DNA of 64,000 nt from Asterias amurensis (taxonomy: Eukaryota; Echinodermata; Asteroidea; Forcipulatida; Asteriidae). Below the pieces are notes generated by a model. It saw only the letters and a program-made list of their open reading frames with translations. It was not told the DNA's origin and searched no databases. The DNA is taken from positions 22,534,450-22,598,449 of the forward strand of contig NC_092648.1 of assembly GCF_032118995.1 (NCBI RefSeq), read 5' to 3'. The translations under genes and the position numbers were made by a program. Shown here in pieces: positions 7,249-63,998 of the stretch. Position 1 is the stretch's first letter; the number at the start of each line of letters is the position of its first letter.

Positions 7249-7634
7249 TTAAAGACAGTGGACACTATTGGTAATTGTCGAAGACCAGTCTTCTCACTTG
7301 GTGTATCTCAACTTATGCATAAAATAACCAACCTGTGAAAATTTGAGCTTGATTGGTCGTCAGAGTTGCGAGATAATTATGAAAGAAAAAAACACCCTTG
7401 TCACACGAAGTTGTGTGCTTTCAGATGGTTGATTTCGAGACCTCAAATTGTAAACTTGAGGTCTCGAAATCAAATTCGTGGAAAATTACTTCTTTCTCGA
7501 AAACTACGTCACTTCAGGGGAGCCGTTTCTCACAATGTTTTATACTATCAACCTCTCCCCATTACTCGTTATCAAGTGAGGTTTTATGCTGATAATTATT
7601 TTGAGTAATTACCAATAGTGTCCACTGCCTTTAA
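7249..7634 (+). mobile_element. MITE family A, copy 2, TTAA-flanked
   Basis: Between TTAA at 7249-7252 and 7631-7634. Same end motif (AGACAGTGGACACTATTGGT) and the same internal 'gagacctca...tgaggtctc' hairpin as the copy at 1.8 kb. Both are colinear over their whole length with scattered substitutions, indicating independent insertions of one family. Confidence 0.8.
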
Positions 7635-8389
7635 TTGAAACAATTTTTTATCACAGGTATTTGGGGCAATAGTAATAATCAATTTTTGACATCAATTATG
7701 TATTTAGTCTTGTTTAACAAGTGTACTTAATCAATCATGTTTTTAATCTGAGGAATGATATATATTCCATCAATTTGTATCCAATAATGCTGGATGAAAG
7801 GGATTGTTACACTGCTGGAAAATAATATATAACCTTGACGCAAATGAAGTGGACATATTTTGTTTTCTGACTCATTTGTTGTTTGTGTATCAATGTACTG
7901 CATTTAAACTGAGTGAAGTCTTTTGATCACTTATGCGTCACTTAAACATACAGAATACACCACTCCAGTGTTGCCAGCTCGCCCATTAGCAGAGTTAAAA
8001 CAAATACTACATCTACCGTTACAACAGGTCTACATTTACATTTGTTATGATTGTTGATTGACATATGATGACTAACATCGCTTTACTGCATCATAATTTC
8101 CCGACACCATCACCGTCAAGCGAGGGATACTATTTCAAAATGTGTTCACCATACCCCAAGGAAGGTCACAAACATACAGTTTTAATTTCATTTCTTAAGA
8201 GGAAAGATACTATTTGATTTGTTAAGCAGGTGACTGGTTTTTGGTGCTATATTAAGATCGGATGGACAACTGCCAGAGCCTGCCAGCATTTTAGGCATAG
8301 CGGAGTAAATGAGAGCCCGCTGAGACATCATAAGGGAATGTTGTTGGGTTATTACCATCAGATGGTTATTACTAGTGATAGATCTAGGG
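7635..8389. other. Mostly featureless; one ambiguous exon-like segment
   Basis: On the minus strand 'catatttcag' at about 8,415 could act as an acceptor followed by some 65 open codons down to about 8,200. I find no downstream donor, partner exon or recognisable motif, so this is not called as a gene. Confidence 0.3.
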
Positions 8390-9000
8390 TTGTCATCTAC
8401 ATTCCTGTCTCTGAAATATGAAATATAAGTCAACAAAACATAGTGTGTAAACAACAGCAAATACGGAATGACCACAAACAAAACATAAAACTTAGACACA
8501 AAAATAATACACAAAACAATTGTAACAAATAATTTTATCTACATCTTTGCTTCTCATGATTTGAAATCTCTGTCATAACACAATGTGTAAACAACAACAA
8601 ATATAAACAGAGCGTGAACAGAGAAGACAAAACAACACTAATTTATTTAACCTACATCTTTGTCTCTTTTGATTGGAAATTTCTGTCAACAAAAAACAAT
8701 GTGCAAACAATTACAAATGCTGCAAAAGAGTAAGGAAATCCTAACACATCAAACTTATTTGAGTCTTTATCCTTGTCTCTCTTCAAATGGACCGTAAACA
8801 AAACGGAAAGGACTGTGGTATGTAAAATAAACAAAATATTTACGGAATAAGAGTAAACAAAAATGTTAACTGAAATTATGTGATCTCCTACGTTACCTTG
8901 ACTCTCACTCCGATAAGGGAATTATTGTTTGGGATGAAAGTAAATAAATAACAATTGTGTGATCCTTATCCTTGTTTGTCTGATATGAAATTAAATGCTG
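8390..9000. repeat. Degenerate tandem array, about 115-bp units
   Basis: A unit containing 'tacatctttgtctct', 'gaaatttctgtcaacaaaa' and 'caatgtgtaaacaacaacaa' recurs at about 8,395, 8,540 and 8,650, with weaker versions at 8,765 and 8,960. No coding role seen. Confidence 0.5.
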
Positions 9001-9545: not shown

Positions 9546-10539
9546 CACATGAACATGAGTTGGATTGGATTGAAACTTTGCCTAGTGGAGAGACTGTATG
9601 TAAATTGATATGGGGAGGAACAATTTGAAAATGGCTGCCGGCATTTTAGTACAGGAAATAATAATCAAATAATTTAACATAATATGACATAACTCGAGAG
9701 TCTTTGAGTGCAGTTTTGATTGATGTTTAATAGAGTGATACACTTCCTGCCATAAAGGCAGATAAATTGATGTTTTTCATCCTTATTGAAACCATGACTG
9801 AATTGAGAAAAGGGAGTATTTTTTGTCTTTGATCATGATGAGTGTTCAATTGAAATTCAAACAAAAAACAACAAAAAACAAATGAATAATTACCTACTGA
9901 ATTCCTTCAAAATCAATAATGAAATTTGTTTAAGAACAAAAGTTTAAAGAGTGGAACAATTGCCCAGAAATTTGAATCTGTGAAATGTTTCTGCATACAG
10001 TTTATTTCTCTATACATAGAAAAATATGCATGGTGTACAAGTGAGCACATAGAAAATTGCCTGCATATAAATGTACATAGAGAAGTGTACAGTATAGTAA
10101 ACAAGTATATAAAACAATTTTTTTTTAACTTAACATTGTTCAACCATCCATCTCACTCATATGCCTTTTCAACCAAGATCAAACTGCAACTTTCCTTCGT
10201 CTGTTTGACCCAATATTATTCAACTTGTTCATATCTGTTGTCAAAATCACTGCATGATTATCTTAATCAACCTTAGCACATACTGGGCATTCTACCCCCA
10301 GGATATGTAACAAGCGGATACCATCAACCATTTCATCTATCACTCTCAATTATCCACACAATGTGGATGACCAAGATGACCTGCCATAATTCCACTGATT
10401 CTGAAGGATGTCTGTATATTTATGCAGGTAAACTCTTCCACAAATCATTTGTGGCAGCAGTAACTCATATTGGCAGTCATAAAGTAACTTCGCACTGAGA
10501 TAATGTACTAAGGGCTCCAAAAGTTTGTTTTCCTCTCTG
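9546..10539. other. Gene-free AT-rich stretch
   Basis: No coding exon, RNA gene or repeat recognised. Confidence 0.4.
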
Positions 10540-12062
10540 CTTTTCACCTTGGTAACCCCTGGTTAGATTTGAATTCTGGACCAGGCATTGCTTGACAAGC
10601 ACTAAAGGCAGTCAGGTTGGCTCTAAAGTTGTTTTCTTTCTTCTGCGTTGTCACCTCTGTAACCTCTAGTTAGGTTCGCATCCTGAACCAGGCCTCGACT
10701 TGCACTAAGGGCAGTCTGGTTGGCTCTAAAGTTGTTTTCTGTCTTCTGCTTTGTCACCTCTATAGCCCGTGGTTATAGGTTCAAATCCTGGACCAGGCCT
10801 TGACTTGCACTAAAAAAAACCAGTCAGGTTGGCTCTAAAGTTGTTTTCTTTGCTTCTAGTTTGTCACCTCTGTGGCCCCTGGTTAGGTTTTAATCCTGGA
10901 CCAGGCCTTGACTTGCACTAAGGGCAGTCTGGTTGGCTCTAAAGTTGTTTTCTTCTTCTGCTCTTCACCTCTGTAGCCCCTAGTTAGGTTCACATCCTGA
11001 ACCAGGCCTTGACTTGCACTAAGGGCAGTCTGGTTGGCTCTAAAGTTGTTTTTCTTCTTCCGCTCTTCACCTCTGTAGCCCCTGGTTAGGTTTGCATCCT
11101 GAACCAGGCCTTGACTTGCACTAAGGGCAGTCTGGTTGGCTCTAAAGTTGTTTTCTTTTTCCGCTCTTCACCTCTGTAGCCCCTGGTTAGGTTTGCATCC
11201 TGAACCAGGCCTTGACTTGCACTAAGGGCAGTCTGGTTGGCTCTAAAGTTGTTTTCTTTTTCCGCTCTTCACCTCTGTAGCCCCTGGTTAGGTTTGCATC
11301 CTGAACCAGGCCTTGACATGCACTAAAGGCAGTCAGGTTGGCTCTAAAGTTGTTTTCTTTCTTCTGCGTTGTCACCTCTGTAACCCCTAGTTAGGTTCGC
11401 ATCCTGAACCATGCCTTGACTTGCACTAAGGGCAGTCTGGTTGGCTCTAAAGTTGTTTTTTTCTTCTGCTCTTCACCTCTGTAACCCCTAGTTAGGTTCA
11501 CATCCTGAACCAGGCCTTGACTTGCACTAAGGGCAGTCTGGTTGGCTCTAAAGTCGTTTTTCTTCTTCTGCTCTTCACCTCTGTAACCCCTAGTTAGGTT
11601 CGCATCCTGAACCATGCCTTGACTTGCACTAAGGGCAGTCTGGTTGGCTCTAAAGTTGTTTTTTTCTTCTGCTCTTCACCTCTGTAACCCCTAGTTAGGT
11701 TCACATCCTGAACCAGGCCTTGACTTGCACTAAGGGCAGTCTGGTTGGCTCTAAAGTTGTTTTTCTTCTTCTGCTCTTCACCTCTGTAACCCCTAGTTAG
11801 GTTCACATCCTGAACCAGGCCTTGACTTGCACTAAGGGCAGTCTGGTTGGCTCTAAAGTTGTTTTTTTTCTTCTGCTCTTCACCTCTGTAACCCCTAGTT
11901 AGGCTCGCATCCTGAACCAGGCCTTGACTTGCACTAAGGGCAGTCTGGTTGGCTCTAAAGTTGTTTTTCTTCTTCAGCTCTTCACCTCTGTAACCCATAG
12001 TTAGGTTTGCATCCTGAACCAGGCCTTAATTGACTTGCACTAAGGTTGGCTCTAAAGTTGTT
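10540..12062. repeat. Minisatellite of about 102-bp units, about 15 copies
   Basis: The unit contains 'cacctctgtaacccctagtt', 'ctgaaccaggccttgacttg' and 'ctggttggctctaaagttgt'. The first two or three and the last copies are most diverged; the middle (about 10,930-11,990) is nearly homogeneous, as expected from unequal exchange or conversion. Because 102 is a multiple of three, the minus strand is open over many units and would encode a 34-residue repeat (core GYRGEEQKKKNNFRANQTAL). The frame is broken between blocks and there is no start context or splice frame, so I treat it as non-coding. Confidence 0.85.
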
Positions 12063-15000
12063 TAAGAGTTGGTAGTACTATGAACATTTTATCGGTGTCA
12101 TTTAAACCAATGTTATATAAGATAAGTTTTAGGTCACTAAGCCAATAATCTTGGCCAAACTTCATCACTGCTATTAAGCAGAACATTAAGCTATTGCTAA
12201 GCAATAGCTTCGAGTATTTCACGGACAAACCTGTTTTCATGTTATTTTCCAGGTTGAAATTTCCTATAGTGACTCGATTCACCCTAACAACATCAAGACC
12301 CCATGATAGATCTTGGTTGCACCATTGTGAGTCTCAACCTCAATCCCCATGTGTAAATGTGAAGTGCATTAAGACCATAGAGCAATGGTTAGATGCACAT
12401 CATATCTTGCAATTTGACTTGCAAACTGATGGCAGACAGAAGACTGTATAACCCCCAGCGACGTCAGTGCAAGGGGCTCTAAACAATAAAGAAGAGGGAA
12501 AGCAATAAAAAAAAAAACAGAACAAAAAAAACCAGCATCATCTGGGGACTTTACTAATGACCCAATCAACATTCAAGCGTGCATCATCTGATATTTCAGC
12601 ATCACGGTTGCCATGGCAATGCAGAGTAGTTGCTAGATGGATAGATATCGAAATACACGACATGGAAAATGCAAAGTCAATAATTTCTTAATGGCTGGCT
12701 TCAGTTATGACATCTAACCAAGACAAGGCTGATCACTCACACAATGGAGCTATCTCCTGCTTGTAGCTCCATGCTGGGAGCTATCTCCTCTTTATAGCTC
12801 CACGCTAACACCATCCAACTGAAGATACTATAACCCCCCCCCCCCCCCCCCCCACTCCTCCTATATGGTTCTCAGATATGATCAGCTTAGGAACTATGAT
12901 GAATTGACCATTGACATGTTCATAAATCCACAAACATCTCAGGGATGCAGAATGGCATGCAAGAACAAAATACCAAAGATTATATTTAATCTGATGATCA
13001 AAATGTGAGACACTCGATGAATGATGCAACTCTGTGCAAATGAAGTCCAGCTTTCTATTGGTATCCTAAATGTCACTTTAACACGTGTGTAGAAAATAAA
13101 TATAGAATTCCACATTTGCAGAAATATAGAAAAAAATATTTTGCCTTCAATGTTATCACATTGCAACTGAAGTGAAACTTCTGTTGCTATATTTCCTGTT
13201 GCTATATTTATCAACGTGAGGTTTAAAGCTCACTTAAGTTTGATAAAAACAACTTTCAGTCATTTTAAAAAAATTTGGTGATGCAAAAGCTGCATCCAAA
13301 ACAGCTTCATCACAGTAATTTGGACTCAAAAGGAAAGTTGTCTACTTGCAATATTTTAGTTAATAGATTGAAAATTGTACTCAAGTGCATGTACACACGC
13401 ATGCAGTCCACGTTTTACCATCATTAGCAATGCAGCACTTTGTCTCCACACGCAATTAAGAATTGTACAGTAGACCTGGTCCTTGAGTAATTCACATAGA
13501 ATAACTGTAGACAGTATCAATTAGAATGTCAACGTGGAACCCTAAGTTGTGACTAACGTAGCGTTTTCAGCGGCATTCGTGTTTGTCTTCTGCACCCATC
13601 ATCCTCTGTGAGGTTATCATTGCTAATGTAGCAATCTTAACCCGCACTAATTAATCTCCGATTTTCAAGGCTATCCCGTTAATGGAAATGTGTCCCAATT
13701 TGCAGATGGTGTATTACCACAACATCTCATCACAAAAAACATTGTGTGCTCAAGCTATGAGGAAGGTTTTACATACTTTATGTTATTCAACCAGGCGCTG
13801 ATACAGGAATTTTACCAGGGAGTCCCCCCCCCCTTCCTAATAAAAAAAACAAACAAAAGATGCAAAATGCAAAACAATGTTTTTTTTTAAGAGTATGATG
13901 CAAGCAGGCATTATGACTAGAGGTCTGTAATGAGCTTTAGGGTTGAAACTGTGTGATGGCACAATTAGGTCCCATTCCCTGGAACCATCCCCTAGACCAA
14001 CACCCCCCATGATTCATCCTTGGACCCAACCAAAGGACCCAACCCCTAAAAACCACCCCTTAGACCCCAACCCTTGGACACGCCCTTTAGAACCACACCT
14101 AACAACGTCTACTGTATCTGAGCACACACTACTGTATAACGCAATAATAAATTTTAAAAATCTGACTGTAACACCTTTAACAAATGTTTCCCAGAAAAGC
14201 TAATCGAAAGGAACTTCTGACAACAACTTTGTAAAAGTCCATCCCTGGGGCAGGACAAATATCATGTTGATTATATTCACCCCGACCCTCGCTTCAACAA
14301 AAGAATGAATCACAACTAGTGACATACAAGTGTTATAGACACTGGTCCCTCCGACACCAATCAAAATAGATGAACACACCCATCAAATAATAAGTGCTTT
14401 ATCAACTGTGTTATTGAGAGCGTATTTTTTATCCCACCCATGTTTATATTAGTTTACTTAATCATCATGACAACAAACGACTCTAATTGTTGTACAGCGC
14501 ACAGTTTTATGACCAAGCAATCCTGTTCTACATTATGATACATTAAGACCACACTTATCGTGCTGTCGCTTGACTGCACACAATGATCATTTTCTACTTT
14601 TCTTTCAGTCTTGGTTTCAAATAACATAATTAGACAAGGTGAAAACAAAAAACCCAGATGGTTTGTACGGATATTATGTTCATGTTTTTTTAGTTTACAG
14701 ACACGGCAGACACAGTAAACAAAAATGGCTAGTTGCCTGCAGAGGCAATGTATTTAAAAAAATACAGGATTGGTAATTTCTTCTTCTTTTTTAGAGAGGG
14801 GTAATCTATAAAATCAGAAAGCTTACTGGTGATCAAGTTCAAACCTTTACCAATTATACAAAGAAATGATCAGTAATACTGTGAAAGGGCAAACAGCATT
14901 TGAAGACACCCAATATAACCATTGCTTAAGTTTGTTAGAGTTGCTCAAGTCTAAAACAATCATGTTTACACCAAGGAATGTTTGGTGTAACATTTTTAAC

Positions 15001-44903: not shown

Positions 44904-45159
44904 GTACATTTCATAAGGTTTTTTCCAAAGCGAACCCTCGCTGATAAATCGGTCTTTACGGACTCCTTACATTGATATCACACGCAGCTCCTCTCTGCTT
45001 TCGGTCTGCCATTTTGGGAGTCAAACTGCATGTAAAGATACACTGTAGGGTGGGCCTCAAACCGTGCATGTGTCATCTTAAGGTACACATTCCACAGTAG
45101 CACATGAGAATCCGTCTCCCAGTATGGCTCCAGCAAGTCTTATCATGGGTGATGATGTC

Positions 45160-45409
45160 AGGGCCCAATTTCATGGCTCTGCTTACCGTAAGCAAGCAAA
45201 GAATCTGTGCTTATGGAAGCAGGGAATTCCATGCTTCTGTCAAGTGTATTTCACGGGCCAGCAGAGAATTTCTGCTTGTATGCCTGCTTAGTCCACGTTA
45301 CTATGCATTCTTCTCTTACACAACTAGTGCAGATTGTAAGCGAAGAATGGTGATCTTAAGCACAGAATTTGTTGGTAAGCAAGCAGAGCCATGAAATTGG
45401 GACTTGGTG
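45160..45409. mobile_element. Inverted-repeat element family D, full copy
   Basis: The ends 'gggcccaatttcatggctct' and 'agagccatgaaattggg' are inverse, with 'gcttaccgtaagc' near the left end and 'ggtaagcaagc' near the right. About 250 bp, between the DCAF4 stop and its poly(A) signal, so probably in the DCAF4 3' UTR. Fragments at 1-95, 16,770-16,868 and 32,005-32,117. Confidence 0.7.
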
Positions 45410-45541: not shown

Positions 45542-48500
45542 TCATAAAGGGTACCAGTATAAGTTTCTTTGTACCCCAAGCAGTAGTCCAGGTTGAGTCC
45601 CATGTTTCCATTCCTGTGAGAATATAGCACTAGGGCTTAGGTGACTTGGTGGCTGTGGGCAAGGGATGGTCCTCAGGAGAGTGGCATCATGGAGGCTCCA
45701 TAGTCTGGTGTAACTGTCTTGGCCAACTAGGACAAGGAAAGTGGAGAATAAAACCCATTATGGATTAGTCTTTTCACTGTCCATCTAGCACTAATGACAC
45801 TTAATGCCTACAATGACTTGCTTTCAAAATTAGATTTCGGAGTTTTAATACTTGAAGTCCTTCGATGAAAATGTTACCTGGGGCCATATCACACAGGGAA
45901 ATTTACACGCAACCAGTTTCAGGCAGTCTCCAAGAAGGAAAATAGTTCATGTTTCAATTTGTGTACATTATTTTCCAAGCTTTTCACACAAACTTGATAA
46001 TTTGGGAATTGTGTACTTGTGTTTGATCCCTTTAAGTTTCTCACACATTGAGAGTACTTTGCATAAGCCTACCTCCGTATAAAGTTTTCTCAGTTGAATC
46101 GACAGAGATAGGTAAATGAGCGTGCTGGTTATTATGACCCTTGAACTCCTGTACACATAGACACTGACGAAGGTCCCATAGTTTGACCTGAAATCAAAAA
46201 GGGAACAAAGCACAAGAAATTTAAATAAAGAGGATTGTTAATCTTAAGTGTGTCAATAATACTGTCGAGAATACAGGGATAACTATAAACAAACATTTCC
46301 AAATAGGGACCAAAAATGCACACAAGTATTTAGGCCTGATACGTCACAAGGGCAATTGCCTCCATACTTCTTGTCAATGGCTGTGGTCCCCCTGGAAATG
46401 TTTCAGTACCCGGTACAATTTTATACAAAGGAAAACCTGCCTTTCCTTTCCGAGATAAAGGATCAGCAGCCAATTTCACTATCCAAAGGCCAACTCAAGT
46501 TTTTGACATTTAAAATTGTCATACCTGCCCACTCATGTCGCTAGCTACCATGTAGTTCTCATCTTTGAGAAGACGGACGGAACACACAGCCACTTTATGC
46601 CTCATTCTCAATGTAATATCTGACCTCGTCTGGGTCAAAGATCGAAGGTCACAGCCCAATATCTCACCACGACGAGTACCATTGTACAGAACTGGTTTCT
46701 GTATTACAAATATTAAGAAAGAAAAGGGTTAGAACAATTTGTTTGAGAGACACTGCTCACAGCAAAATCCAAATAAAAATTGTACATAAATATTAAATTC
46801 TGATTCAAGGACAGAAAAATGGAAAGAATACATTGTCAGCTCAGTAAATGCAATTTCATACTCGTAATAATCAAAAGGTCGTGAAAAATGCATATAAGTT
46901 TTAAAAATTAATCAAGATACAGAAGTAAATGTTTTTCTTAGAAATTGAGTGTCTCTTTTTGCCAACAATTACTATTGAGACCACTCTTGATCAATAAACT
47001 CCATTTACCGAGAGCTCCAAAGTATGTAAAAAGCAAATTTCTGAAATCTATGCAAACTACACCTTATAGTCCAAATAGTTTTTGGCCCGCCTAGTTCGCC
47101 GTCTAATATCTGGTTCTAAAACTGAGATTAGATAAAACTTACTCTTGTAGAGAACACCTGGGCTAAGACATCGCTGTGATTGGTGAATACCTTCCACTTG
47201 TATGCAGTAACAGTGTCTACTACAATGGCTTTATTGCTTGAACCTACATGTACAGAAAAGACCATAAAGTCTTTTAACGCTGGGTTTGATGGACATTTCC
47301 AAATACATTTTAACTTATAATAAAAAGACGTCTTTCGAAAACAAAATAACTGCCCACAAACAAAGATGTTGACAAAACAGAGAATGCCGACACATGGGTA
47401 AGTACGTAGCCTGTAGGTAGAGCACTGGTATGTAACCCAAAGGTCGCAGTTTCAAATCTCGCTCCAGTCAATTATTCTTTGTTCATCCCAAAATTTTAAA
47501 TTGTTTTATCCCCCCCCCCAAAAAAAAACCCCATGAACACCTGATATTATTAAACACTTTCTTTTCAAACCTGTTTATCCGACAAGATTTCAGGCTCGTA
47601 ATTTAAAGTATGAGAGGGCAAGGCCAGTTTCATTTTGCAAAAGGCCGAGACAAGGGGCAACAGAGGCTATCATGGCCTTCTTAGCCTCTGCGTAAACGTT
47701 GCGCAAGTGGACTTACGCAGTTGCGTAAAGTTTCGTGAAATCGGCCCCAGGTCTGATATTCTGCTCACCTATACTAAGATATGATGGAGCTACTGGGTTG
47801 TTGCTCCATGTGCACGTCCAGGCAGACTCATGATTGCTCTCATAGCTATACGTGATGTGGTTATGACCATCTAGAGAGGAAATAATTGCGTATTTACATG
47901 TCATCTTCAAGATGTTAAGGGGGATAGTTAGGGTGAGCTCAATGAGGTAAAAACTCAGATAATATGGTGACAACAATTTTAAAACATATACCCGGTACAT
48001 GCAACATCAAAGCGGTTAAAATTTGGGTTGAATCCGTTCTGTTAGTCAGGAGTCAGTTTGAGAAATCATGCAAAATGTTCATTACTTAATCTTAATTTGG
48101 GTTGTAACAACCAATCAGTTGTGTTTTCTAACCTTCTTCTCTTGGGCACCTCAGTAGCTGTACCGAACTCATTGGACCACCGGATACAGAATATCTGAGA
48201 TAACACTCAGTCAAGGAATTCAATTTGTTTTCTTTGTAGGTATAAAGTAGGAGTTTAAACTTTGCATGGTTGGAGTATAATTAGGTGAGGTTTGCAGTAG
48301 CAACATGTGTAAACCTCTTTTGAGTGGTGTTGGTTCTGAAAAGAACAGGTGGTGGACAACTAATGTTTCTATCAGTATGCTCTGATCATCTTCAGGAGAA
48401 GACGATCAGAGCATATTTATTAAAACATTAAGTTGTCAAATAGGAAGACGATCAGATTATACTGATCGCAACATTGAGTTGTCAACCACCGGTTCTTAGT

Positions 48501-49294
48501 AGAATCGACACTACTCAAAAGAGATGTGCTACTATACCATAAACCACACCTAGTTAAAAGTTAATATACAGGATTGGCAGAACTGCAAATAGTGGCAGAC
48601 ATTGTTAATCATGTTTAGACTGATCAACCATATTTATTAAAATCCGGCTCTAATCCATTGTGTGAGCCAGGAGAAAATAGTAAAAAACAACCCAAATCAG
48701 CCGATTGCATATTTTAAAATTTTCAGATACATTTTTCTCGAACATGACTTCATTTTTAAAAAAACAATGTCACAGAAAAATGGTTCAAGTATGGGCTTCG
48801 TAATCAGTAAAGCTTGCTTTCAGACTAAAACTAAACAATGGAGATATTTATTCTGACCAAAACCTACAAGGTTTTTAAGGAATTGAGTTTGAATGTATAA
48901 CTGAAAGGATACATGATTTGTAGGTCGTCTGGATTGTCAGTGCAGGAAACCCAAGAAGCACTTGTAACCTGCAAGAAATAGATCAAACAAAAGAAACAAA
49001 CTCACTTGAAGCCTCTTGGAGGAAAACCTGTGAGACTGTACATGTGATGAAAACTCATTCAATCTCCCACTCATCAAGGAACTATTTTCCAGTGAGAATT
49101 ATGGGGTGTCGTGGTCGAGTGGATAAGAGCACCAAATTCAAGCTCAGGTGTTTCTGTTTAGGAGAGTGTGGTTTTGAGTTCCGGTCGTGACGTTTGTCTC
49201 GCTTGAGCAAGATATTTAACTTTAATTGCTTCTCTCCACCATGGGGTAAATGGGTACCTGTGAGGGCAGATGGTTCTTGTGATTGATTTAGCTC

Positions 49295-49325
<31 letters not shown>

Positions 49326-49411
49326 TAACATTTATTTTCAAACTCACATGGAGGCGTCATCCTCAAGCCGAGGCTTGTGGTTGAGACGCCTTTGGGTGTA
49401 AAGCGCTATAA

Positions 49412-49452
<41 letters not shown>

Positions 49453-52400
49453 CAAGATGTTTTCCTTTACCTTGGTCACTCTTGTACCGATAATGTTGAT
49501 CACTTTCCAGTCAGACACACACACTGATCGAGGCTTGGAGGGGTCAGGGGTGATGGTGCCTTGCCACATTCTGAAGGAGAAAAGTAATAGAATCAGAACA
49601 TGTAAACAAATAGTTAATTGTCTGACATAAGATCAACCCTCGCAGAGTCTTTCCTGAAGGCTTCCCAGAGGCTTTCCTGAAGGGTCGAAAATGCAAAGCC
49701 TTTTAACTTTTTTTGTTACTTTTATACAATAGATCTTTTTGGTTGGTGAGCTGTTTGTGACAGCTTATTCTATTTTCTCAAAAAGTGAACCACAATTTAT
49801 ACATAAATATTTGGTTTGCGGTTGCGTTTTAGCTGTGTACATTGTTTAAGAAAGAACTTTTCCTGTTGTTCTTGTACATGTACTGCAGAGTAACTTTTAA
49901 AATTCTGTGACTTATAAAGATTTTGTTGTCATTCATTTTTTTTTTTAAGTATTACCGATCTATGACCCTACTTTTAAGTTTGAAACAAAAAGCATGAATT
50001 CACCTGCTCAGGTAATCGTGTGATAAAACCATCAAAACCCTTTGCTGACACTCATCAACCTATTACAAAATAAAAAGTTAATTGCCATATTATTATTATT
50101 AATAATCCATCAATTAAATTCCTTACAAAATAATGTATTTATAACAAGTTTGAAATGACCCCTGTAAAAGCTCTTAACAAAGTTTGATTAGTTTTGAACT
50201 TGTATCACACACATGCCTTATTATCTGCAGTTATTGTTTCTAGAGCTAATATATTTGCAATTTTGTTATGAGTCGGAGCATTTTAGAACTTAAAATTCTT
50301 GGCATTTACAAACGCACAGATAAATAATGAGTAACTCTTTGCAGATCTTGTATTCGACAAACTCTAACACCAATTTATTTATTATTGACACATAGCGATT
50401 TTTGTTCCTACATCAGTGGTTTTCCCAACTGTTGTTCTTAAAATGGAAACGGGAAAAAATGTGTACACATGATTGCGACTGTGTACATGTACAGCCCACA
50501 AACATAAACAATTATACATGTACCTTGATAGAAAGAGTTTGTGGAACTGTGTAAAAGATATCTTTGATATTATTGTTTGTTTTACAACGTTACTATGGAA
50601 ACAATAAACCAAACCGTTTTTGACCTACCTGCAGGAAACTGATATCACCTGATTCTCCATCAAAGTACTGGTCTGGGAAGTTAGCGAGCTTTCTTGGTTT
50701 TAAATCTAGATTCCTCAGGGAGTGTTCCTGGGAGAACCTGAAGGTGGTGGAAAATTATACACCTAAAATTATTCAGTGGTAAACATTCAGCGCTAACATC
50801 GGAAGCTTTGAACTGTGAAATTCATAGAAGAGTACAATCTGAATACCAGGCAATTAAACAAAAATTGGAAATAAATAATGGCAATTCAACCAAGTTTGTT
50901 TACCTAGTATAAATATATATTGTATGAAATTTAACACAACAGTGCTTGCACTAACCTCATGAATTGTCTCGAAGTCAGCTGTCCAGTTTGTAAACTTCTC
51001 TGGAGTGAACAAAACACTGTATTCCTATTAGATGTTCCCTGCATTGAGAAAGGAGATACAGTTTCAAACATCTTTTGATTGCTTCTGGTACATCAGTTGT
51101 TTTTAAGGTGTGTTGTCACTCAGGCTTCGAGAAAGACTCTACTGATTAAAAACGTCTGGCCATGAACTACCTTTTGCATACAAACATCTTTGAACACACA
51201 GACATTTTTACTGTAAACAGCTATTCAAAAAAAGGAGAAATGTGGATTTGGATTAAGTGTCCACACACATTTCAAAAACTTACATCGCAATCTTTTTCAC
51301 CTACATGTAGGTTTATGTATGCTTTTCTTAGCAAAGTAGAATATAATGATCCACACAACATGCCTCGAAATTGCGTGGTTTTCCTTTTACTTTGACAACT
51401 AACACGGTCGACCATTTTGTGGAGTATGGCCGACCAAGGCAACGTGTCCCTTTTTAGACACAAACCTTCTTCTGGCCGATGGCTTGGTCGTCATTCAGCA
51501 GCTCCAGTCTTTTCTTCTCTGCCTCTTTCTTCTCTATACTCTCCCTTGTTAGGGGATTGAAATTATTGTGTCCAGGTAGCAACCGGAAATAACGTTTCTT
51601 GACCGAGTCATAATAAAATCCTGGAATCTGTGCTTTGACATTAAGGTTATCAAATTCCAATTGATGAAGAGACATGAAGACACCCCCTTGCATAGGTACC
51701 TTAACTTTCAGCCAACTTTTGTCAATTTGAAATGAATTTCCCATCAAGATAATATTTAAAAAAAAGTTAAATTGAATTGTATTGAATTGAAATGAAAGAG
51801 TGGGGGTTATCCCAATGTTTCTCGTTCGCACAGCAAGTACCCTTGTTATTAGGTCTCGTCATCAGGCTCTTGTGAGCCGCATAAACAGTGATTAACTTCT
51901 TTAGGCATGAAGCACCTTTGGCTTCATTTCCCAATGTAGCCTGTATTTACCATTATAATACCAGGGGCATAAACTGAAGTGAGCAAAAGGATATCTTTGA
52001 CGGCTGTAGTCGCTGGTGGTTGTCCCGATGATGTAGAGGCTGCACTCCCTGCCCCGCCGCTACTGCCTGCTACAGATTCACCAGGGCTGCAATGTCCACT
52101 GCTTACTCCCTGAGATTTTACCCTCGCTTGTTTATTAGAATTGCCGCCGGAGCCTCTTGCTCCTATACAACCACAGGGCGATGAATGCGATCGACTTTTC
52201 CTACAACCTCCACAATGTTTCGTTGTATTCCATGGTTTTGGCTTCTGATGAGATACACCAGAACCAGATGCTCCTGGGGTTCTGTCGTCAAAATGTCCAG
52301 AGCCAGATGATGACCTTTGACCTCTACTACTACTAGTAGCAACCGATGGTTTCTCGTCTCCGTCAGGGGGATGGTTGCTATGGTGATTATTATCCCACTG

Positions 52401-52499
52401 ATGTTTACCACCCTGATGAAATCTGCTCTTGTTTGAAGGTTTTCTCTTTTTCCATTTCCATTGCCAGTTTCTGCGTTGTGGGGGCGATGTTTCTGACAT
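45542..52499 (-). CDS. DCAF4: DDB1- and CUL4-associated factor 4 (WD-repeat protein), complete
   Basis: WD-repeat substrate receptor thought to dock on DDB1 in CUL4-RING ubiquitin ligases. Thirteen coding exons: 52,499-51,995; 51,629-51,466; 51,038-50,956; 50,737-50,629; 50,059-50,004; 49,570-49,471; 48,968-48,913; 48,194-48,133; 47,870-47,769; 47,243-47,143; 46,698-46,525; 46,187-46,073; 45,726-45,542. They sum to 1,812 nt, 603 aa plus stop, with every phase consistent (human protein about 495). Family signatures: IPGFYYDSVKKRYFRLLPGH with NPLTRESI (from residue 170), NHSDVLAQVF, PVLYNGTRRGEILGCDLRS, NYMVASDMSGQVKLWDLRQC, VGQDSYTRLWSLHDATLLRT, and a C-terminal NLYWYP. The N-terminal 168 residues are low complexity (basic, then Ser/Gly-rich) and longer than in vertebrates. 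ATG at 52,499 is chosen because in-frame stops lie just upstream. A 5' UTR acceptor (ggggcag) sits at 52,568, so a non-coding exon should lie upstream. Introns 1 and 7 look U12-type. Confidence 0.95.
46333..46470 (+). repeat. Dispersed repeat F, copy 4, in DCAF4 intron 11
   Basis: 'ggcctgatacgtcacaaggg', 'ggcaattgcctcca', 'tgtggtccccctggaaatg' match the first half of the 43.5-kb copy with more divergence. Right half decayed. Confidence 0.5.
47398..47500 (+). repeat. tRNA-derived SINE head in DCAF4 intron 9
   Basis: 'gtagcctgtaggtagagcac' resembles an A box and 'gcagtttcaaatctcgctcc' a B box at normal tRNA spacing. Decayed tRNA-like head without cloverleaf potential; its body runs toward the C/A tract at about 47,511-47,530. 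Confidence 0.5.
48195..48912 (-). other. DCAF4: U12-type intron, GT-AG class (DCAF4 intron 7)
   Basis: The minus-strand donor AT|GTATCCTTTCAG fits the minor-spliceosome consensus GTATCCTT. The branch motif TTCCTTGAC (branch A at 48,211) matches the U12 consensus TTCCTTRAY and lies 16 bases from the AG at 48,196-48,195. There is no strong pyrimidine tract. Joining gives codon AT+A and continues the frame (phase 2) into a 62-bp exon, whose phase-1 end fits the next exon. The 718-bp intron also holds a 230-bp fold-back element. Confidence 0.8.
48306..48535. mobile_element. Fold-back element in DCAF4 intron 7
   Basis: The left arm 'acctcttttgagtggtgttg ... ggtggtggacaact' pairs with the inverse of the right arm ('agttgtcaaccaccggttct ... 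actactcaaaagagatgtg'). The middle repeats 'gacgatcaga' and 'tgatcatcttc', giving an inner stem. About 230 bp, non-coding. Confidence 0.65.
49100..49453 (+). repeat. tRNA-derived SINE with (CAAT)n and (ATT)n, DCAF4 intron 6
   Basis: 'gtcgtggtcgagtggataag' (A box) and 'gttttgagttccggtcgtga' (B box) form the tRNA-like head. The body has 'cttgagcaagatatttaact' and 'ctctccaccatggggtaaat', shared in part with the SINE at 41.1 kb. A (CAAT)n tract at about 49,292-49,324 and the terminal 'gtaaagcgctataattttt' with (ATT)n at 49,416-49,453 complete it. It ends 18 bases downstream of the exon-6 donor in gene direction. Confidence 0.75.
51323..51455. repeat. MITE family B remnant in DCAF4 intron 2
   Basis: 'gtagaatataatgatccaca', 'cgaaattgcgtggttttcct' and 'aactaacacggtcgaccatt' match the left arm of family B. 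It then jumps directly to the right end 'ccaaggcaacgtgtcccttt', so the centre and right arm are deleted. It ends about 10 bases from the DCAF4 exon-2 donor. Confidence 0.65.
51630..51994 (-). other. DCAF4: U12-type AT-AC intron (DCAF4 intron 1 of the coding region)
   Basis: The minus-strand donor reads GTCAAAG|ATATCCTTTTG, exactly the ATATCCTT consensus of AT-AC minor introns. The acceptor reads CAAAGCAC|AGATTCC. A branch motif ACCTTAAT (branch A at 51,641) sits 11 bases before the AC end, in the usual 10-16 range. Removing 365 bases joins G to AG and gives VKEIPGFYYD, aligning with VPELPGFYFD of vertebrate DCAF4. No GT-AG choice gives as good a join. Confidence 0.85.
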
Positions 52500-54630: not shown

Positions 54631-57600
54631 ATGAGTGGAATCCGGTTTGCATCGGACATGGAGAACCCTGTGTAAGTCAGTCTAATTTTTATGCCTCAAA
54701 TTGATTTATCAACGAGGAAATTTTAACACGGTGACAGAGCTCAAAATAGTGGAGATTGAAAGAGAACAGGTGATGGTGGTAAATTCAGGAATACGCGCCC
54801 CTTTACAATCTGAGGTTGAAGTGGCCACTGACGCAAGTCTATGCTGAATGATGATGAAACCTTTTTACAAAGGAAAATATGGCTTTACATCCTGATTGCT
54901 TTATTAATAGAACCATTTATCAGGCCTGGCAACCACATCAACCATGCCATCAATGGGTCAAGCATACTAACCTACCTTTAATAACAAAAGAAACAATTTG
55001 TTGTTCTCTTCTTTCCTGTTAACAGTCCAGTTGGATCCAGGGCCAAACCAAGAAAGAGGCGATCCTCTGTAAGTAGTTGTTAAAATATTGATACTTCATA
55101 AAATGCAGTACCTAGTGTTAGGTTTTTTTCTTCTAATTCACTTACATAGTGAACACTGTAATTTGTTTACAAATGTAGCGTATGGAAATGCTTGAAATTA
55201 TACAAGAAGTCTTTCTAAGTTTCATATTCAGATGAAAAAACATATAGATTGTTTTTTTGGTTTTTATGTTAACAATGTTTTACAATCAAATTTTTTACAA
55301 TGCTTTGTTTTATAACTAATCCAACCGACTTTATATTTATCTTTAAATGTATTTGATAACTTGCTTGTTATTTTTTTGTCAATTACACTTTTTGATAACA
55401 CTGAAGAACCCTATGAGTTTTAACTTTTTACTGTTGCATTGACCTTTGTAAATGCATTTCCACAACACTGAAATTTTATCACAACGATGTTCTGTTTTGT
55501 GCAGATTTTGAAGTCCCCATCAAGAAATGCCCTTCATGACTTGGATCCCAATACTGGTGAAGAGCGAGATACAACCAGGTACAAGAGTTTAAAACATGCA
55601 GTCTAAAACTGTAATGCACAGGTCGATTATTTGTGTCTGTTTTTGGGGTGGGGGGGGGGCCTGCAGTTTCTTTTGAAACTCGCTATCACAGAGACGAAGG
55701 ACTTGGGTTTTTTTAATGATCAAACCTGTAGACTTTTGTTTGTGGCAAATTCTCTGAAATGTAACATGCTACTTCATCAGGGAGTGTCATCTCCATGATT
55801 TATGCTTCCTTGCTCTCTGATTTATGTGATCCAATAATCCGGTTTAGGGGTTTCTATATAATCCCTGTTTTATTTGTTTATTCGTTTAGTTATTACACAT
55901 GCAACGGCACAATTAATGCCAGTAACAGGATGAATAGGAAACAAGAAAAAAGGTTCAGTTTGAGATGTTGGAGGAAAACCTCAAATGGGGGAAACCAGAA
56001 AGTTTATCTTGGTTTTAGGTTTTTCTCATAATCTTCTTGATCATTACCATTTTCTTGAAAGAAGTACAACCAAAGGACCACTTTGTAGTTTCTTGTATTT
56101 CTGGTGATGCACAGAGTCTGTAAACCCCTTGAATTGTAAAATCCGAGAGGTTCTTGGTCTAGAAGAAGCGGGAACCCAGACCACAAACATCAAATTTTAT
56201 CCCTAAATTGTATTTTTTTTTCCACTTTATAGTCATGCCAAGAAGAAGAAACGTCTCTCATCAAGAAGAGTCAGCTTTGCCAACACGTATCAAGTCCAGT
56301 AAGTATTGAAACCTTCATATAATAATATTAATGATAATAATAATAATAATAATAATAGGGTTTCACGCCTGAAGGCTGGTCTCGTACAATCATTTACTTT
56401 TTACATTATTTCATTGAAGTTTTGGTTGATTTTTTTGGCCCGTTGAATAATAAGCTTCATGATTAATTGTTAATAAATGTTACATGACATCCAGCCATGA
56501 AACAATCTATTGGCTTTATAAGTGCAGTGTCTTTGTGCATTGAACTGCCCCGATGGAATTCTAATGAAGATTTTGTTTTCTCTCATTCCCGCTCTGTCCA
56601 ATTGCAGAGAATTTCTGACTGCACAGCAGCTGAACATTTTGGAGGATACAAAGGCTGAACAAGAAGACACTCAGCCGTTCTCTCCAGAGAAGATAGACCA
56701 ACAAGCACCAGCAAGCAGCACATTAGCACCTCCTATATCAGGGTTTGTTCTTAAATTGTTCAGTAGCTAGCCAGCAGTAAGCTTGGGCGGGTTTTGATTT
56801 TGTGGTATATCGTTGCCATAAACCGCGGTATTCTGTATAACAGGGAACTTTTTGAACAAAACAAAAACAAAAACCACCGAAACCACTGAACTAGGAGGCT
56901 AACTACACATTTCTAAATCGGCTTTTCTCAATGACCATTGTTTCTTTTCTCTACAATTAGGTCATCGTCTGCAAACACTGGACAACATGCGGATGTTTCT
57001 CAATCACGCCAGCCTGATACATCTGTTGGACCCGGGCATTGCATTCGAGGTAAAAAGTTCATTACAACCCTTTGAGCCCAAATCGTGAATTTGTTTGACT
57101 GCACTATACCCTGCTTGAGCCCCAGTGGCGTCTTTATTCGACTGTGCACTATACCCTAATTGAACCTCAATGGCGGTTTTAGGCAACAAAGATAAAACAC
57201 AAAAAGCACTCAAGCCGAGCAAAAAGGTTATAAAGCAATAGTTTTGTCCATGTTCATCCTTCATATCCAAACTTGTGGTTGCCCAATGATGGGCACACTG
57301 AAACCAAACTAATGGATTGATGACTAAAATTTACGGTCACAGATCTGTGGTATCGTTAGTTACTCTATTCTCATTATTATTTGTTCAACTAGAGAATGGG
57401 AATTAATTTATGTTTCTTAAAACCTATAACTTGTCATACCTATAAGATACAGACATTTTGTGTTAAGCACGTCCTTTATATAAAACCCATTTAAGATATT
57501 TTTAAATTATTTTTTTAGGTCTTGACATTCTTCTGTCTGGTCCAATAAAGAAACAGTCCGCGACGGAATCCTTCCCAAAGATGCTGCACTGTCCAGAAGG

Positions 57601-60600
57601 GAGCATCGTAGAGCCTCCTGTAGGGGCCATGTACCCAAGCGATGGCACAGCTCACTTGCCTTCGATTGACGAAGATTGTGAGGTATCTATGGAAAGACAC
57701 GGGCCTGAGACGAATACCAACGAGAGATCAGATCTAAAAGATGCGCAACAAAATTGGCCAGGGCTGACAATTAACCCTGACACTGCCGGCTTGATTGGAC
57801 CAGCTTACCACTGCAGGCTCCCAGTAAATGAATCCATGAGCAGCTCCCATCATGGCTCTTTGAGTGCTTCATCGGCTGACCAAAGCAAAGACCAGATCTT
57901 TGATCTTCATGACACTTTGTATTTTGAATCTACCAGCGGTCGTGATCAGTTCTTGTCAGTTTTTGCAGATTTAGGGGAAGGCAAGCCACTAGAGGAACCT
58001 GTTTTTGCAAAGAAAGACACCTCCTCTTTTCTGAAATCTTTCATGAGTTCAGGCGACACACTGGCTTCACAAAGTCCCCCGAAGAAACAGGATAACTTCT
58101 TGCCAGTTTTTGCAGATTTGGGGGAAGGGAGGCAACTAGAAGAACCTGGTTTTGCAAAGAAAGATACCTCCTCTTTTCTAAAGTCCTTCATGGGGTCAGG
58201 CGACACATTGGCTTCACAAAGTCCCTCGAAGAAACAGGATACAAAGAGTTTCTTAAATTCCTTGTTTGGGAATGAAGAGAATCAGCGCAACAATGAGACC
58301 AACCAATCCACAATCACTACATCAAGGTTAGATGAACACACCTCCATTTTTGACCAGAATGCCTTGGTATCAGAAATGGAATTCACAACTTGTGTCAGCA
58401 ACAAGGAAACGGAGGGATGTCGGAGAATGGAGCCTAGTGCTTTCTTTAAGTCTCTGATTCAAACGGAATCAAGAGGTAGTTTGGACTCTTTTGGGCATTC
58501 AACATTTCCAAGCGATGACAGCCAGAAAACACGTGTCTTTGGCCAGAATGAGGCTACAGGTGCTATGGACTTCACTACATGCATCAGTGGTGTGATCAAA
58601 GAAGCCGGCAGCGTTCTTCATGCGTCTAAACAGCAAGATGTAACGATGAGATTTGGAGAAGACCCTGCTGCCAACATGGAGCTCACTCAGTGTATGGATG
58701 CTTCGCAAAAGAAGCCTACTTGCTCCGTTCAGAAGCCTAGTGGTAGAGTGGGTAGGCCGCTGGAAGATATCACCAGGATATTCGATGGACAGATGGGTGG
58801 AGGTGAGATGGAACTGACGACCTGTGGTGTCATTGCTGACTCTTATAACAGGTCAAAAGCTGAAAATGGGCAAAAGAACATCTTGAATAACAAAGATGCA
58901 GATACTGCTGTGACGTCTTGTTTGGAGGGCCAGCCCTTTCCACTAAGCGTGCATAAGAACGACAACACCAGAATCTTTCATCATACAGAAACTGCCGCTG
59001 GCATGGAGATGACAGTGTGCTTGGAAGGTAAACCCTTCCCACTACAATTATCTGAAAATGGCTCCAGTGCAGATTTATCTAAGAATCTTGAGAAAACCAG
59101 AATCTTCCAAAGCAACGAAGCTACTGCTGCCATGGAGATGACAACTTGTTTGGAGGGGCAGCCCTTCCCCCTGAAATCGCAAGACAGTATCTCCGGTAAC
59201 AACTCTCGTAAGACCCTGGAGAAAACCAGAGTCTTCCAAAGCAACGAAGCCACAGCTGCCATGGAGATGACAACTTGCCTAGAGGGGCAGCCCTTCCCTC
59301 TGGAATCGCAAGTCAGTATCTCCGGTAACAACTCTCATAAGACCCTTGAGAAAACCAGAATCTTCAATTGTGATGAAACCACAGCTGCCATGGAAATGAC
59401 AACTTGCCTAGAGGGTAAACGGTTTACTCAAAAATCACACGGAAATCTTCCAAGCATAGATTCTTCGAAGGACCTACAACAAGATGCTGAAGCCCCCAAC
59501 TTCCCTCAGTCTAATTTAGAGGTAGACGTTACAAGATTATTCAGTCCGAACGATACATCTTGTGGGATGGACATGACAGAGTGTATGGATGAGAGACCAC
59601 CTTCTTCTCTCTCAGGGGCAGTCGACAAACCTCAGGGGATCTCAAGAAGCCCAGTTGATGAGAAGACTGAAGCATTCTGTGGTATTCCATTTATTGGATC
59701 ACCTTTTGATGAGGATGACCCATTTGAGGTTGATAAGACCCAAGTGTTTAAGCAAGAGGACACTGCTGGTATGGACTTCACAGCCTGTGTTGGAGGGTTG
59801 CTCCCTAAAACAAATCCTACAAAGGTGACCGATCGTGGAGAACAATCTGTAATTGCAAGAAAGACAACCTCATCTCAAAAGTTGAATGATGAAGGTCAAC
59901 GCCATGGCTTAACGCTTGGGTCTGATAAGGTTCAAGATGATTGCACAAGGAGATTCGCATCAACAGACGACACTGCCAGAATGGAGTTGACAACTTGTGT
60001 TGCTAGTGAGGTATCTTATACCCCAGCTGGCACTGACGATAATCTTCCACGAGGCGGGCAAGGTGAGAGCACACAGATCTTTTCTCAAGGAGAAACAGCA
60101 CAGATGGAACTGACATCTTGCCAACTGCAACCACTGCCCGCCCTGGCTTTTCTTTCAAGCAAAAGATCCCCACGTAAAGCCCCCATGGATCAGACTACTA
60201 GAATGGAAATCACAGCCTGTATCGGTGGGATTTTCCCGATAATGTCATCGGATCCATCTCAGGCTGACCATCAGCAAGACAAGACCAGGGTGTTCAGCCC
60301 AGTGGATCATGCAGCTGGCATGGAGATGACCCAATGCGTTGGAGGTCTTGATTTGCATTCCGTTGAGACAGGAGGACAGTCCGAAAATCTCAAAGAGCAC
60401 ACACGAGTGTTTACTTCAGAAGACACCGGTAAGATGGAGATGACGAGCTGCATCGGCGGCCTGCTCCCGCAGCCGTCGGGGATTTACAGCTTGGAAGCAG
60501 GGAGTAGAGAGGTACAACCCAGCCACTTACACCTACCTAGGATGGCTCCAACCGGAAGGTCTACTGAGCAAGCTGCTCCTCAGGACCAGACCCGTATCTT

Positions 60601-63548
60601 TACATCTGAAAACACTGCATCCATGGACATGACTACATGCATAGGAGGAGTTATTGGAAAAAGAATACCACAGTCCGGCAATTTTTCATCCCAAGAAACG
60701 TTACCTGATGCCCCGGACAGTCTTCCGGATCAAACGCGCCTCTTTACCTGCGACAACACAGGAAAAATGGAACTGACAACTTGCATTGGGGGAATTAATG
60801 GCGGCTGCTTCACACAGCAGAAATCTGTAGATGTTTGTCAGGAGTCCAGCCAGAAAGGTCACCCTCTCCCGGATACAACATGTATCTTCACTCATGATGA
60901 CACAAGTAAGATGGAGATGACTCAATGTGTTGGTGGGATTCACAACAAAGCCGTTGAGCTGTTTACTGGTGCACACAGCAGAGAAGAATCAAGTAGTTCT
61001 AGAGATCAAAGAGAAATGGGCAGAGAGGCGTATAGCAATGCCTCAAAGAAAGCAAAACTGTCAGAGGAAAGAAGTGTCGAAACCTTAGAGAAGAGTATCT
61101 CTCAAGAAGGCCAGGTTTTTCCTGTGGATCAGGTTCATCCAGATCAGACAAGAATATTCACATCTGAGGATACGGCAGCCATGGAAATCACTCGCTGCAT
61201 GGATCAAATTCCGGCTTCCTCTGGGGACAACATGGCCCCAGCATGTGTCACTGCGAATGGTATAAAGCAGGAAACGACACTCCAGTCCACTCCTGGACAG
61301 CTGCTGACTGACTCCGACACGCTTGCACACCAAGTTGACCGCCCATCCAAACGTGATTCAGATACCTTTACAATCGATCCAGCATCTGGTGTCATCAAGG
61401 CCTCTGCGCAAACAACCAGACGATCTGACACCTACACCCTGGACACCTCACCGGAAACCTCTGCCGTGGTTGCAAATCACCCTGCTGCCACCGTTTCCCA
61501 AAGGGATGGCTCCAGCTCCTCAACATCAGACACAAGTAAACGAGGCAGTTGTGAGGGAGAGGAGGAAAGTCGAGATATGATAGGGGAGCTGATTCAGTGG
61601 GGTAGCTTGGACTCTGCAGCTGAGGGTATTGATGATGAACAACCCATGTGGGTGGAGAACACGGAGGATTTTGCCCAGTTGTCGACCCAGGCTGGACTCG
61701 CTAGTATCATACTAATGGAAAAGAAGGATCACACAGGTAACTAGTGTTCAATTTCTTCTGCTGTTTTTTTTTTTCTTTCTTCACACTGTGAACACTTGTA
61801 GTTTATTTGATTTTCGATCTATAGAAATTAAGTATCGGGTAAAGGCCTTGAATAGGCACAGCAATTTTCCTCTGTTAAAGGTCAAATTACAAAAAAAATA
61901 ATAATAATTACAAAATAAGGGGACATTTTAAATTTGTATTGGAACTTGAGAGCACAGGTCACCACAGCAAGCCATTGATTATTTTGAGGCCTACGAGTAT
62001 AACAACCATCAAGTAAATCTTGTTATAAGGTTTACAAATTTTATACCTTTAAAAAATAATTTAACAATATCTTTTCCCAGATTTAATTGTTGATATCATC
62101 TCTAAGCAATATTGCCGATTCTTATTCCTCTGTTTTATTTTCCTAAACTTCACATTGTTTTCAATCCATCTCTTTCTCTCTCCAAAACGCAGCTTCAACA
62201 ACTTCCAACGCATTTCCAGCCTTTAGCAATGACAATGGTCAAGGTGTGGTTCTCGCATCTGAGATTCAAGACACTGAGGAAACCAAGAGCCCCGATCCCA
62301 GCATAGAGACAAATGAGACGATGTCGTCACCTGACTCCAATCTGCAAAATGAGAATCCCATGCCTGTAAGCTATGAAGTTAAAAGTGCCGTCTCTTATAG
62401 TTTGGGTGTTTATAAATGCTTTGTCCTTAGAAATTCAATCAGTATTCTTCATGAAGAAACACTTTCATTATGAGGAAACTCCTGAATTACTTTACATCAC
62501 AGAAATTATGACGGTGTGCTAAATGTGTTTTATCCCCCCCCCCCAAAAAAAAAAAAAAAAAAACACAAAAAGAAAATAAATAAATAAATAAAAACATGTG
62601 TAAATAAATAAAATACAATTTTTTTTTTAAATTGGGTTTAGAAAACCAGTTTCCCTGGGCCTAGCGTTTTACTTTTAAGTTCTGCTTTTTTTCAAAGTGG
62701 ATGTTTTTGCTTTAATCTCTGTCTTTTACCGCTTTTCTCCCAGCTACTGTCTGGTGAAAAGCTTTAGATCTAAAATTTTGTCCCACACCTGGGAATAATG
62801 TTCTTGCCTCTCAGGCAGGATCTGAAACCTTCAAAACGTTATTGTAGACTTCTCATCAACTATCCATACTGAAATTGTTTCATTGCAGAGCTCATGTTCG
62901 TCAGATCCAGTATCAATGCAGGACTTTCTCAGTTTTGTGACTATCAATGTAAAGAAGGGTCGTCGTAGTGTCCTACCAGCCATCCCAAAGGTAAGTAGTT
63001 TATGGTTGCTGCTTGTAAAACAAAAAAAACAGTCATTGAAGTTGTTGTGTCAAGAACCAAACATTCAGCTCCAGGGTCTGATTTCATAAAACTGCCAAGC
63101 ACAAAAATATGCTTAGCATGAAATTTTCGCCGTGATAAAAAGAGGATTACCAACCAATTTTCCATTTGTTACATATTAGCTTGTTACTTGTATTCAGCTG
63201 TTGTTTGCTTATACTGAAAATCACGTGGAAATTTGGTTGGTAATACTGTTTTTATAAAGGCAAAAATTTCATGCTAAGCAAATTTTTGTGCTTAGCAGCT
63301 CTATGAAACTGGGCCCTGGTCTGAGGCGGGATTTGAACCGGGGTCCACAGAGGTGAATGCGGGGGAAAAAACTTAGCCAGTCTGAATGCCTAATTTATTG
63401 TGTCTAAATACAAATTGTCTTTACTTTGTCTTTTGCAGTTGACATCAGCACAGACAATAAGTGACCTACTGGAGAATCGCTTTCTCATCCAACCAAGGAA
63501 AGTGTTGTACGAATGGGCCATTAACCATCTGTCAACATCCATTGACAA
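54631..63548 (+). CDS. KNL1: Kinetochore scaffold KNL1, first ten coding exons (C-terminus beyond window)
   Basis: Outer-kinetochore scaffold of the KMN network; phosphorylated MELT motifs recruit BUB3-BUB1 for the spindle checkpoint and the N-terminus docks PP1. Exons: 54,631-54,671; 55,026-55,068; 55,505-55,578; 56,233-56,298; 56,608-56,742; 56,961-57,049; 57,519-61,736; 62,193-62,365; 62,889-62,990; 63,439-63,548. All are GT-AG with consistent phases, about 1,683 residues so far. PP1 motifs: SSILKSP (residues 27-33) and RRVSFA (64-69), both as in vertebrate KNL1. A 49-residue tandem duplication starts near residue 292. Nineteen MELT-type repeats span residues 436-1376. Exons 8-10 carry SMQDFLSFVTINVKKGRRS and TISDLLENRFLIQPRKVLYE, fitting the start of the C-terminal coiled-coil part. 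The coiled coil and RWD domain that bind MIS12 lie beyond the right edge. ATG at 54,631 opens MSGIRFASDMENPV. Confidence 0.95.
55840..56175. repeat. Decayed SINE-like repeat (family G type) in KNL1 intron 3
   Basis: 'gagatgttggaggaaaacct' and 'gggggaaaccagaaag' resemble the conserved core of the repeats at 36.7 and 42.3 kb. The remainder is too decayed to delimit well. Confidence 0.3.
57944..58237 (+). repeat. KNL1: Tandem 147-bp in-frame duplication inside KNL1 exon 7
   Basis: Two copies of a 49-codon unit (copy 1 from 57,944, copy 2 from 58,091), each with VFADLGEG and FAKKDTSSFLKSFM, then SGDTLASQSP. About nine codons in ten agree, indicating a fairly recent duplication. Neither copy holds a MELT motif. 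Confidence 0.85.
58376..61198 (+). repeat. KNL1: MELT repeat array of KNL1 (19 motifs)
   Basis: Motifs M-[ED]-[LMIF]-T-x-C in order: MEFT, MDFT, MELT, MELT, MEMT (x4), MDMT, MDFT, MELT, MELT, MEIT, MEMT, MEMT, MDMT, MELT, MEMT, MEIT. One further unit (near 58,900) keeps TSCLEGQPFPL but has lost the MELT core. Most motifs are preceded at 10-12 residues by T-R-[IV]-F, the T-omega element known to bind BUB1-BUB3, and followed by C-[ILV]-[EG]-G. Three consecutive units (59,080-59,420) share AAMEMTTCLEG and near-identical DNA, showing recent unit duplication. The vertebrate SHT follow-on motif is not obvious. Confidence 0.9.
61737..62192 (+). other. KNL1: KNL1 intron 7
   Basis: GT-AG intron (CACACAG|GTAACT to aaaacgcag|CTTCAA). 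An in-frame stop lies two codons past the donor, so retention would give a protein truncated after the MELT array. Plain AT-rich content. Confidence 0.7.
63071..63317. mobile_element. Inverted-repeat element family C, copy 2, in KNL1 intron 9
   Basis: 'ctgatttcataaaactgcca' at left and 'cagctctatgaaactgggcc' at right. The interior 'aagaggattaccaaccaatt' and the inverse 'ttggttggtaatactgtttt' match the copy at 21.5-21.8 kb. A tRNA-like 'gcgggatttgaaccggggtc' follows at 63,328-63,347, perhaps the edge of a SINE remnant. Confidence 0.7.
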
Positions 63549-63825: not shown

Positions 63826-63998
63826 ACGTTTGGTTTTTACCCATACACCGATGTGTGTTAGCACTGTATACTCAGTACTTTCCCGAGTCCTGTGAAAAAA
63901 TATCACAGGCATTACACGGGTGGGATTTCGAACCCACGACCCTTGCAACTCTAAAGCAGTGTCTTACCAACTAGACTACCGAGGTTGCCCGGTAGCTA
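63826..63998 (-). repeat. tRNA-derived SINE in KNL1 intron 10
   Basis: On the minus strand: 'cctcggtagtctagttggta' (A box), 'gtgggttcgaaatcccaccc' (B box), then 'gggaaagtactgagtataca' and 'gtgctaacacacatcggtgt'. Same family as 41,618-41,765 and better preserved. The inserted A after GTTCGA and absence of pairing stems argue against a working tRNA gene. Confidence 0.75.

Follow-up and report, generated by a model that had tools for sequence, protein, structure and literature searches.

The question raised by this locus is which spliceosome would remove the introns of a DCAF4 gene lying on the minus strand of a 64,000-nucleotide stretch of Asterias amurensis DNA (assembly GCF_032118995.1, contig NC_092648.1, positions 22,534,450 to 22,598,449; the whole stretch is referred to as the window, and all coordinates are those of the window). 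A preliminary description had placed an AT-AC intron of the minor, U12-type class close to the start of the coding region. As judged from the splice and branch sites, intron 1 of DCAF4 is very probably a U12-type AT-AC intron and intron 7 a U12-type GT-AG intron, and the remaining ten introns are classed as U2-type GT-AG. The features on which this assignment depends are as follows.

51995..52499, minus strand: coding exon 1 of DCAF4, from an open frame and an in-frame join; low-complexity Ser/Gly-rich N-terminus ending TAVK+G
51630..51994, minus strand: intron 1, predicted U12-type AT-AC, 365 bases, phase 1, between coding exons 1 and 2
51984..51994, minus strand: predicted U12-type 5' splice site of intron 1, ATATCCTTTTG, 8/8 against TATCCTTT at +2..+9
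51640..51646, minus strand: predicted U12-type branch site of intron 1, CCTTAAT, with 51641 (or 51642) as the branch A
51466..51629, minus strand: coding exon 2, beginning EIPGFYYDSVKKRYFRLLPGHNNFNPLTRES, from an open frame and an in-frame join
48913..48968, minus strand: coding exon 7, from the exon-join model
48195..48912, minus strand: intron 7, predicted U12-type GT-AG subtype, 718 bases, phase 2, donor GTATCCTTT, branch TTCCTTGAC
48133..48194, minus strand: coding exon 8, from the exon-join model

Read on the minus strand, intron 1 spans ATATCCTTTTG to ...AACCTTAATGTCAAAGCAC (ATATCCTTTTGCTCACTTCA...TTGATAACCTTAATGTCAAAGCAC, with ...GCCGTCAAAG as 5' flank and AGATTCCAGG as 3' flank), and its coordinates had been given exactly. 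Its removal yields the in-frame sequence TAVKEIPGFYYD in phase 1, and the protein continues across the junction as ...TTAVKEIPGFYYDSVKKRYFRLLPG. If an intron with this AT donor is closed at the AG of 51628 rather than at the AC, the frame is lost. The AT-AC U12 pattern described earlier is confirmed in all its parts: the donor is an 8/8 match to the U12 5' splice site RTATCCTTT, near the 3' end the branch word AACCTTAAT contains the exact core CCTTAAT of the consensus TTCCTTRAY, the branch A at 51641 is followed by the intron end after 11 bases, and the terminal dinucleotide is AC. This branch distance lies inside the optimum of 11-13 bases stated in a passage of PMC3584512. A polypyrimidine tract, which U12-type introns lack, is missing here as well, since only 9/20 acceptor positions are pyrimidines, the lowest value among the 12 introns (13-17/20 in the other 11). 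Intron 1 shares with U12-type AT-AC introns the donor ATATCCTTT, a CCTTAAY-type branch 11 bases before AC, the missing pyrimidine tract, and phase 1; its branch word opens with AA where the consensus has TT, and otherwise nothing notable sets it apart. Ranked by U12 signals, the join comes first among the 393 in-frame GT-AG, GC-AG, and AT-AC joins between the two open frames. The preliminary description went too far in allowing only this join to produce the conserved start, as several of the 393 keep IPGFYYD.

Intron 7, which the preliminary description had overlooked, is by its sites an equally clear second U12-type intron of DCAF4. Its donor GTATCCTTT matches RTATCCTTT at 8/8 places and its branch site TTCCTTGAC matches TTCCTTRAY at 9/9. 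The base before the donor is T and the intron is in phase 2, which fits a bias of U12-type introns against phase 0 and an excess of U (T in the DNA) at -1 in the GT-AG ones, both reported in a section of PMC7367187. Donor, branch, phase 2, and -1T are features common to intron 7 and known U12-type GT-AG introns. It differs from these in its branch distance, taken up below, and in harboring an internal inverted-repeat element: nested inverted repeats at 48315-48523, with arms of 47 bases (83% complementary) and of 33 bases (85%), look like the remains of a small palindromic transposon in a minor intron.

Both introns are set apart from the other ten, which match the U12 donor consensus at only 1-5/8 places. 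Calculated pairing with the human U1 5' end amounts to -0.2 and -1.3 kcal/mol for introns 1 and 7, respectively, compared to -5.6 to -11.8 for the other ten, and pairing with U11 gives -6.2 and -4.9 kcal/mol, the best two values of the 12. The likely donor of intron 7 also comes out low (-3.4) in a model built for U2 sites alone.

How often such sites arise by chance was estimated from first-order Markov simulations with 400 replicates each of 64-kb windows and gene-length strands, in which a reading frame was not required. Perfect RTATCCTTT words occur five times in the window, compared to a mean of 1.62 in the simulated windows (both strands), so that the donor alone proves little. A stricter test demanded an RTATCCTTT donor and, within 2 kb, a CCTTRAY word followed at a distance of 8-20 bases by the AC or AG that suits the donor. 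At least one such site pair was present in 6/400 simulated gene-length strands and two in 0/400; for simulated windows, at least one pair was found in 31.5%, at least two in 6.0%, and at least three in 0.5%. Four donors of the window pass this test, located at 51994, 48912, 6959, and 2579. The latter two belong to candidates that are not claimed as introns. The plus-strand candidate 6959-7206 has the donor GTATCCTTT, a perfect branch TTCCTTAAT, and 11 bases to its AG; two further 3' ends lie within 2 kb of its donor, and no coding exons were seen around it when positions 5500-9000 were read by eye. The other one, 2579-1022, is on the minus strand. These leftover pairs are near chance expectation, given the frequencies of simulated windows with at least one or two pairs.

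The gene carrying the two introns is, according to its Pfam match, the DCAF4 of an animal, which bears out the earlier assignment: residues 338-602 of the product correspond to PF23761 (Beta-prop_DCAF4) with an E-value of 1.8e-69 and 234.8 bits at a cut-off of 27, and the other 15 Pfam families listed for the product are WD40 families which all remain under their own cut-offs. The start codon was placed at 52499, where the open frame has its first ATG, and is otherwise unproven. The coding region and the exons not given above are:

45542..52499, minus strand: entire DCAF4 coding region, 603 amino acids in 13 exons with 12 introns between them, from the exon-join model and Pfam
51038-50956, 50737-50629, 50059-50004, 49570-49471, minus strand: exons 3-6, from the exon-join model
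47870-47769, 47243-47143, 46698-46525, 46187-46073, 45726-45542, minus strand: exons 9-13, from the exon-join model

The starfish product has the Beta-prop_DCAF4 profile in common with DCAF4/WDR21, a CUL4-DDB1 substrate receptor, and differs in that its N-terminal half is without a Pfam family at E 0.01. If the product is cut at exon 7 or a later one, the part matched by PF23761 starts in exon 9. A search of the PDB returned chance-level matches or generic WD40 relatives, none of the best 60 of 134 being named DCAF4, and a scan of viral and prokaryote contigs found no relative. Downstream of the stop codon, an inverted repeat with 26-base arms (92%) that are 196 bases apart occupies 45159-45406; it looks like a miniature inverted-repeat transposable element (MITE) in or near the 3' untranslated region of DCAF4.

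Several observations weigh against assigning introns 1 and 7 to the U12 type. In intron 1, the branch word AACCTTAAT agrees with TTCCTTRAY at only 7/9 places, and a second 7/9 word is found 31 bases from the intron end. In intron 7, the branch A is 16 bases away from the terminal AG, beyond the optimum of 11-13, the pyrimidine content of 13/20 (-23..-4) falls at the low end of the range of the U2-type introns (13-17), and for its donor another U12-like 3' end exists at 47905, inside intron 8 of the model. U11 pairing barely parts intron 7 (-4.9) from intron 12 (-4.8), and among the 987 GT/AT sites of the gene, 50 and 102 pair with U11 more strongly than introns 1 and 7, respectively. Branch pairing with the U12 small nuclear RNA does not separate the classes (-4.9 for intron 1, -3.6 to -8.2 for the other 11), as calculated with a short duplex model that handles the bulged branch A poorly. 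Moreover, the Pfam match checks neither of the U12 junctions: exons 2-6 are without any family match, and the DCAF4 profile score stays constant when exon 7 and then exon 8 are dropped (235.9, 236.0, and 236.0 bits). A further point concerns ordinary donors around intron 1. On an approximate donor score table, on which the ten U2-type introns range from 1.48 to 6.12, two of them fall inside this range, 52081 with 2.95 and 51950 with 2.97. In a rival reading, intron 1 would be an ordinary U2-type GT-AG intron running from 52106 to 51628, from 52081 to 51633, or from 51950 to 51628. All three versions are in frame, with the junctions VKSQG-IPGFYYD (52106), CSPAQ-IPGFYYD (52081), and PGIIM-IPGFYYD (51950), the donors at 52081 and 51950 make seven in-frame joins of which six retain IPGFYYD, and U1 pairing of the three donors (-5.3, -5.4, and -5.3, respectively) comes near that of the weakest U2-type donor (-5.6). 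Note that the preliminary description had itself named GGA|GTAAGC as a rival donor; it is indeed in frame with the 51628 acceptor, but is located at 52106 and not near 52,080, the donor actually present at 52081 being CTG|GTGAATC. However, the 52106 donor scores only 0.4, under all ten U2-type introns, and the acceptors of the three versions contain 9, 11, and 9 pyrimidines in 20, compared to 13-17 in the other 11 introns. In fact, 0/122 in-frame GT-AG joins for intron 1 reach 13 pyrimidines, their 10 acceptors containing 7-11/20. With such a join, the perfect U12 donor, the branch site, and the AC in the right spacing and frame would also have to be coincidental, and an ordinary intron at this place appears highly improbable.

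Even less credit is given to an AT-AC intron 1 that is spliced by the major spliceosome, comparable to the divergent U2-type subclass of AT-AC introns, the existence of which was reportedly demonstrated by Wu and Krainer in 1997. U2-type AT-AC introns use U2-like donors, whereas intron 1 pairs with U1 at only -0.2 kcal/mol, 684/987 GT/AT sites of the gene pairing better, and its acceptor is without a pyrimidine tract; this possibility is extremely unlikely. As to intron 7, 26 in-frame joins exist, and the best U2-like one uses the donor 48867 (CTT|GTAGGT) with the same acceptor, extending exon 7 by 15 residues. This donor is in frame and stop-free, with a score of 0.6, a U1 pairing of -5.1, and an acceptor of 13/20 pyrimidines, but its score is under that of every U2-type donor in DCAF4, and it would render the perfect U12 donor and branch site of intron 7 coincidental, and its use is hardly to be expected.

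The sequence itself shows the identity of the gene, the splice motifs with their frame and phase, and the stops; that the minor spliceosome acts on introns 1 and 7, and whatever regulatory effect may follow, we infer from established U12 biology. U11 and U12 would recognize donor and branch site jointly in introns 1 and 7, U4atac/U6atac/U5 would finish their removal, and the ten other introns would be handled by the major spliceosome. An unspliced intron 1 would let the exon 1 frame run on for 23 codons, to its end at 51924, and with an unspliced intron 7 the exon 7 frame would hit a stop at 48866. Because of these stops, failed splicing at either intron would be expected to truncate the protein, and full-length DCAF4 would need minor splicing twice.

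Single and double U12 introns per gene are ordinary and well documented, and DCAF4 joins a known class. Passages in PMC3584512 give about 50 human genes with two U12-type introns, and those in PMC6717393 give 50 with two and three with three; DCAF4 likewise has two among mostly U2-type introns, and carries one of each subtype. The AT-AC share of human minor introns is put at about 26% in part of the text of PMC10639083 and at about 22% in part of PMC6717393. Since the minor-intron content of deuterostomes has already been surveyed genome-wide, the starfish Asterias rubens being described as comparable with vertebrates (excerpt of PMC10639083), one case alters no general picture. Searches for DCAF4 with "minor intron" or "minor spliceosome" and for WDR21A with U12 returned no open-licence full text, supplementary gene lists being outside the search, and DCAF4 may well be present in published minor-intron tables. 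It is a tentative and rather doubtful proposition that DCAF4 is so far missing from the lists of genes with two minor introns, of which it would have one AT-AC and one GT-AG, and that its message would need minor splicing at the start and in the middle. With a pair of U12 introns that differ in subtype, a single gene would contribute a data point to the documented clustering of minor introns, as treated in portions of PMC7367187 and PMC3584512. Should the two positions be ancient, loss or conversion of at least one of them may have taken place in vertebrates, which would make DCAF4 a good case for U12-to-U2 conversion. The case matters mainly for annotation: as had been predicted, gene finders requiring GT-AG would put the exon 1 end in the wrong place.

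Some further features of the window lie outside DCAF4. An inverted repeat with 28-base arms (96%) that are 330 bases apart, similar to a MITE, is present at 7249-7634. A minisatellite at 10520-12063 consists of 15 copies of a 102-base unit with 90% matches; on the minus strand, a frame of 143 codons encoding a repeated peptide stays open there. At 63913-63985 on the minus strand, an Rfam match to transfer RNA (36 bits) goes along with no ARAGORN call and is possibly a transfer RNA-derived repeat. Finally, an open stretch of 1408 codons extends over 57518-61741 on the plus strand and contains MELT motifs in repeated form (Pfam MELT, E 2.2e-13); we take it to be probably the large exon of KNL1.
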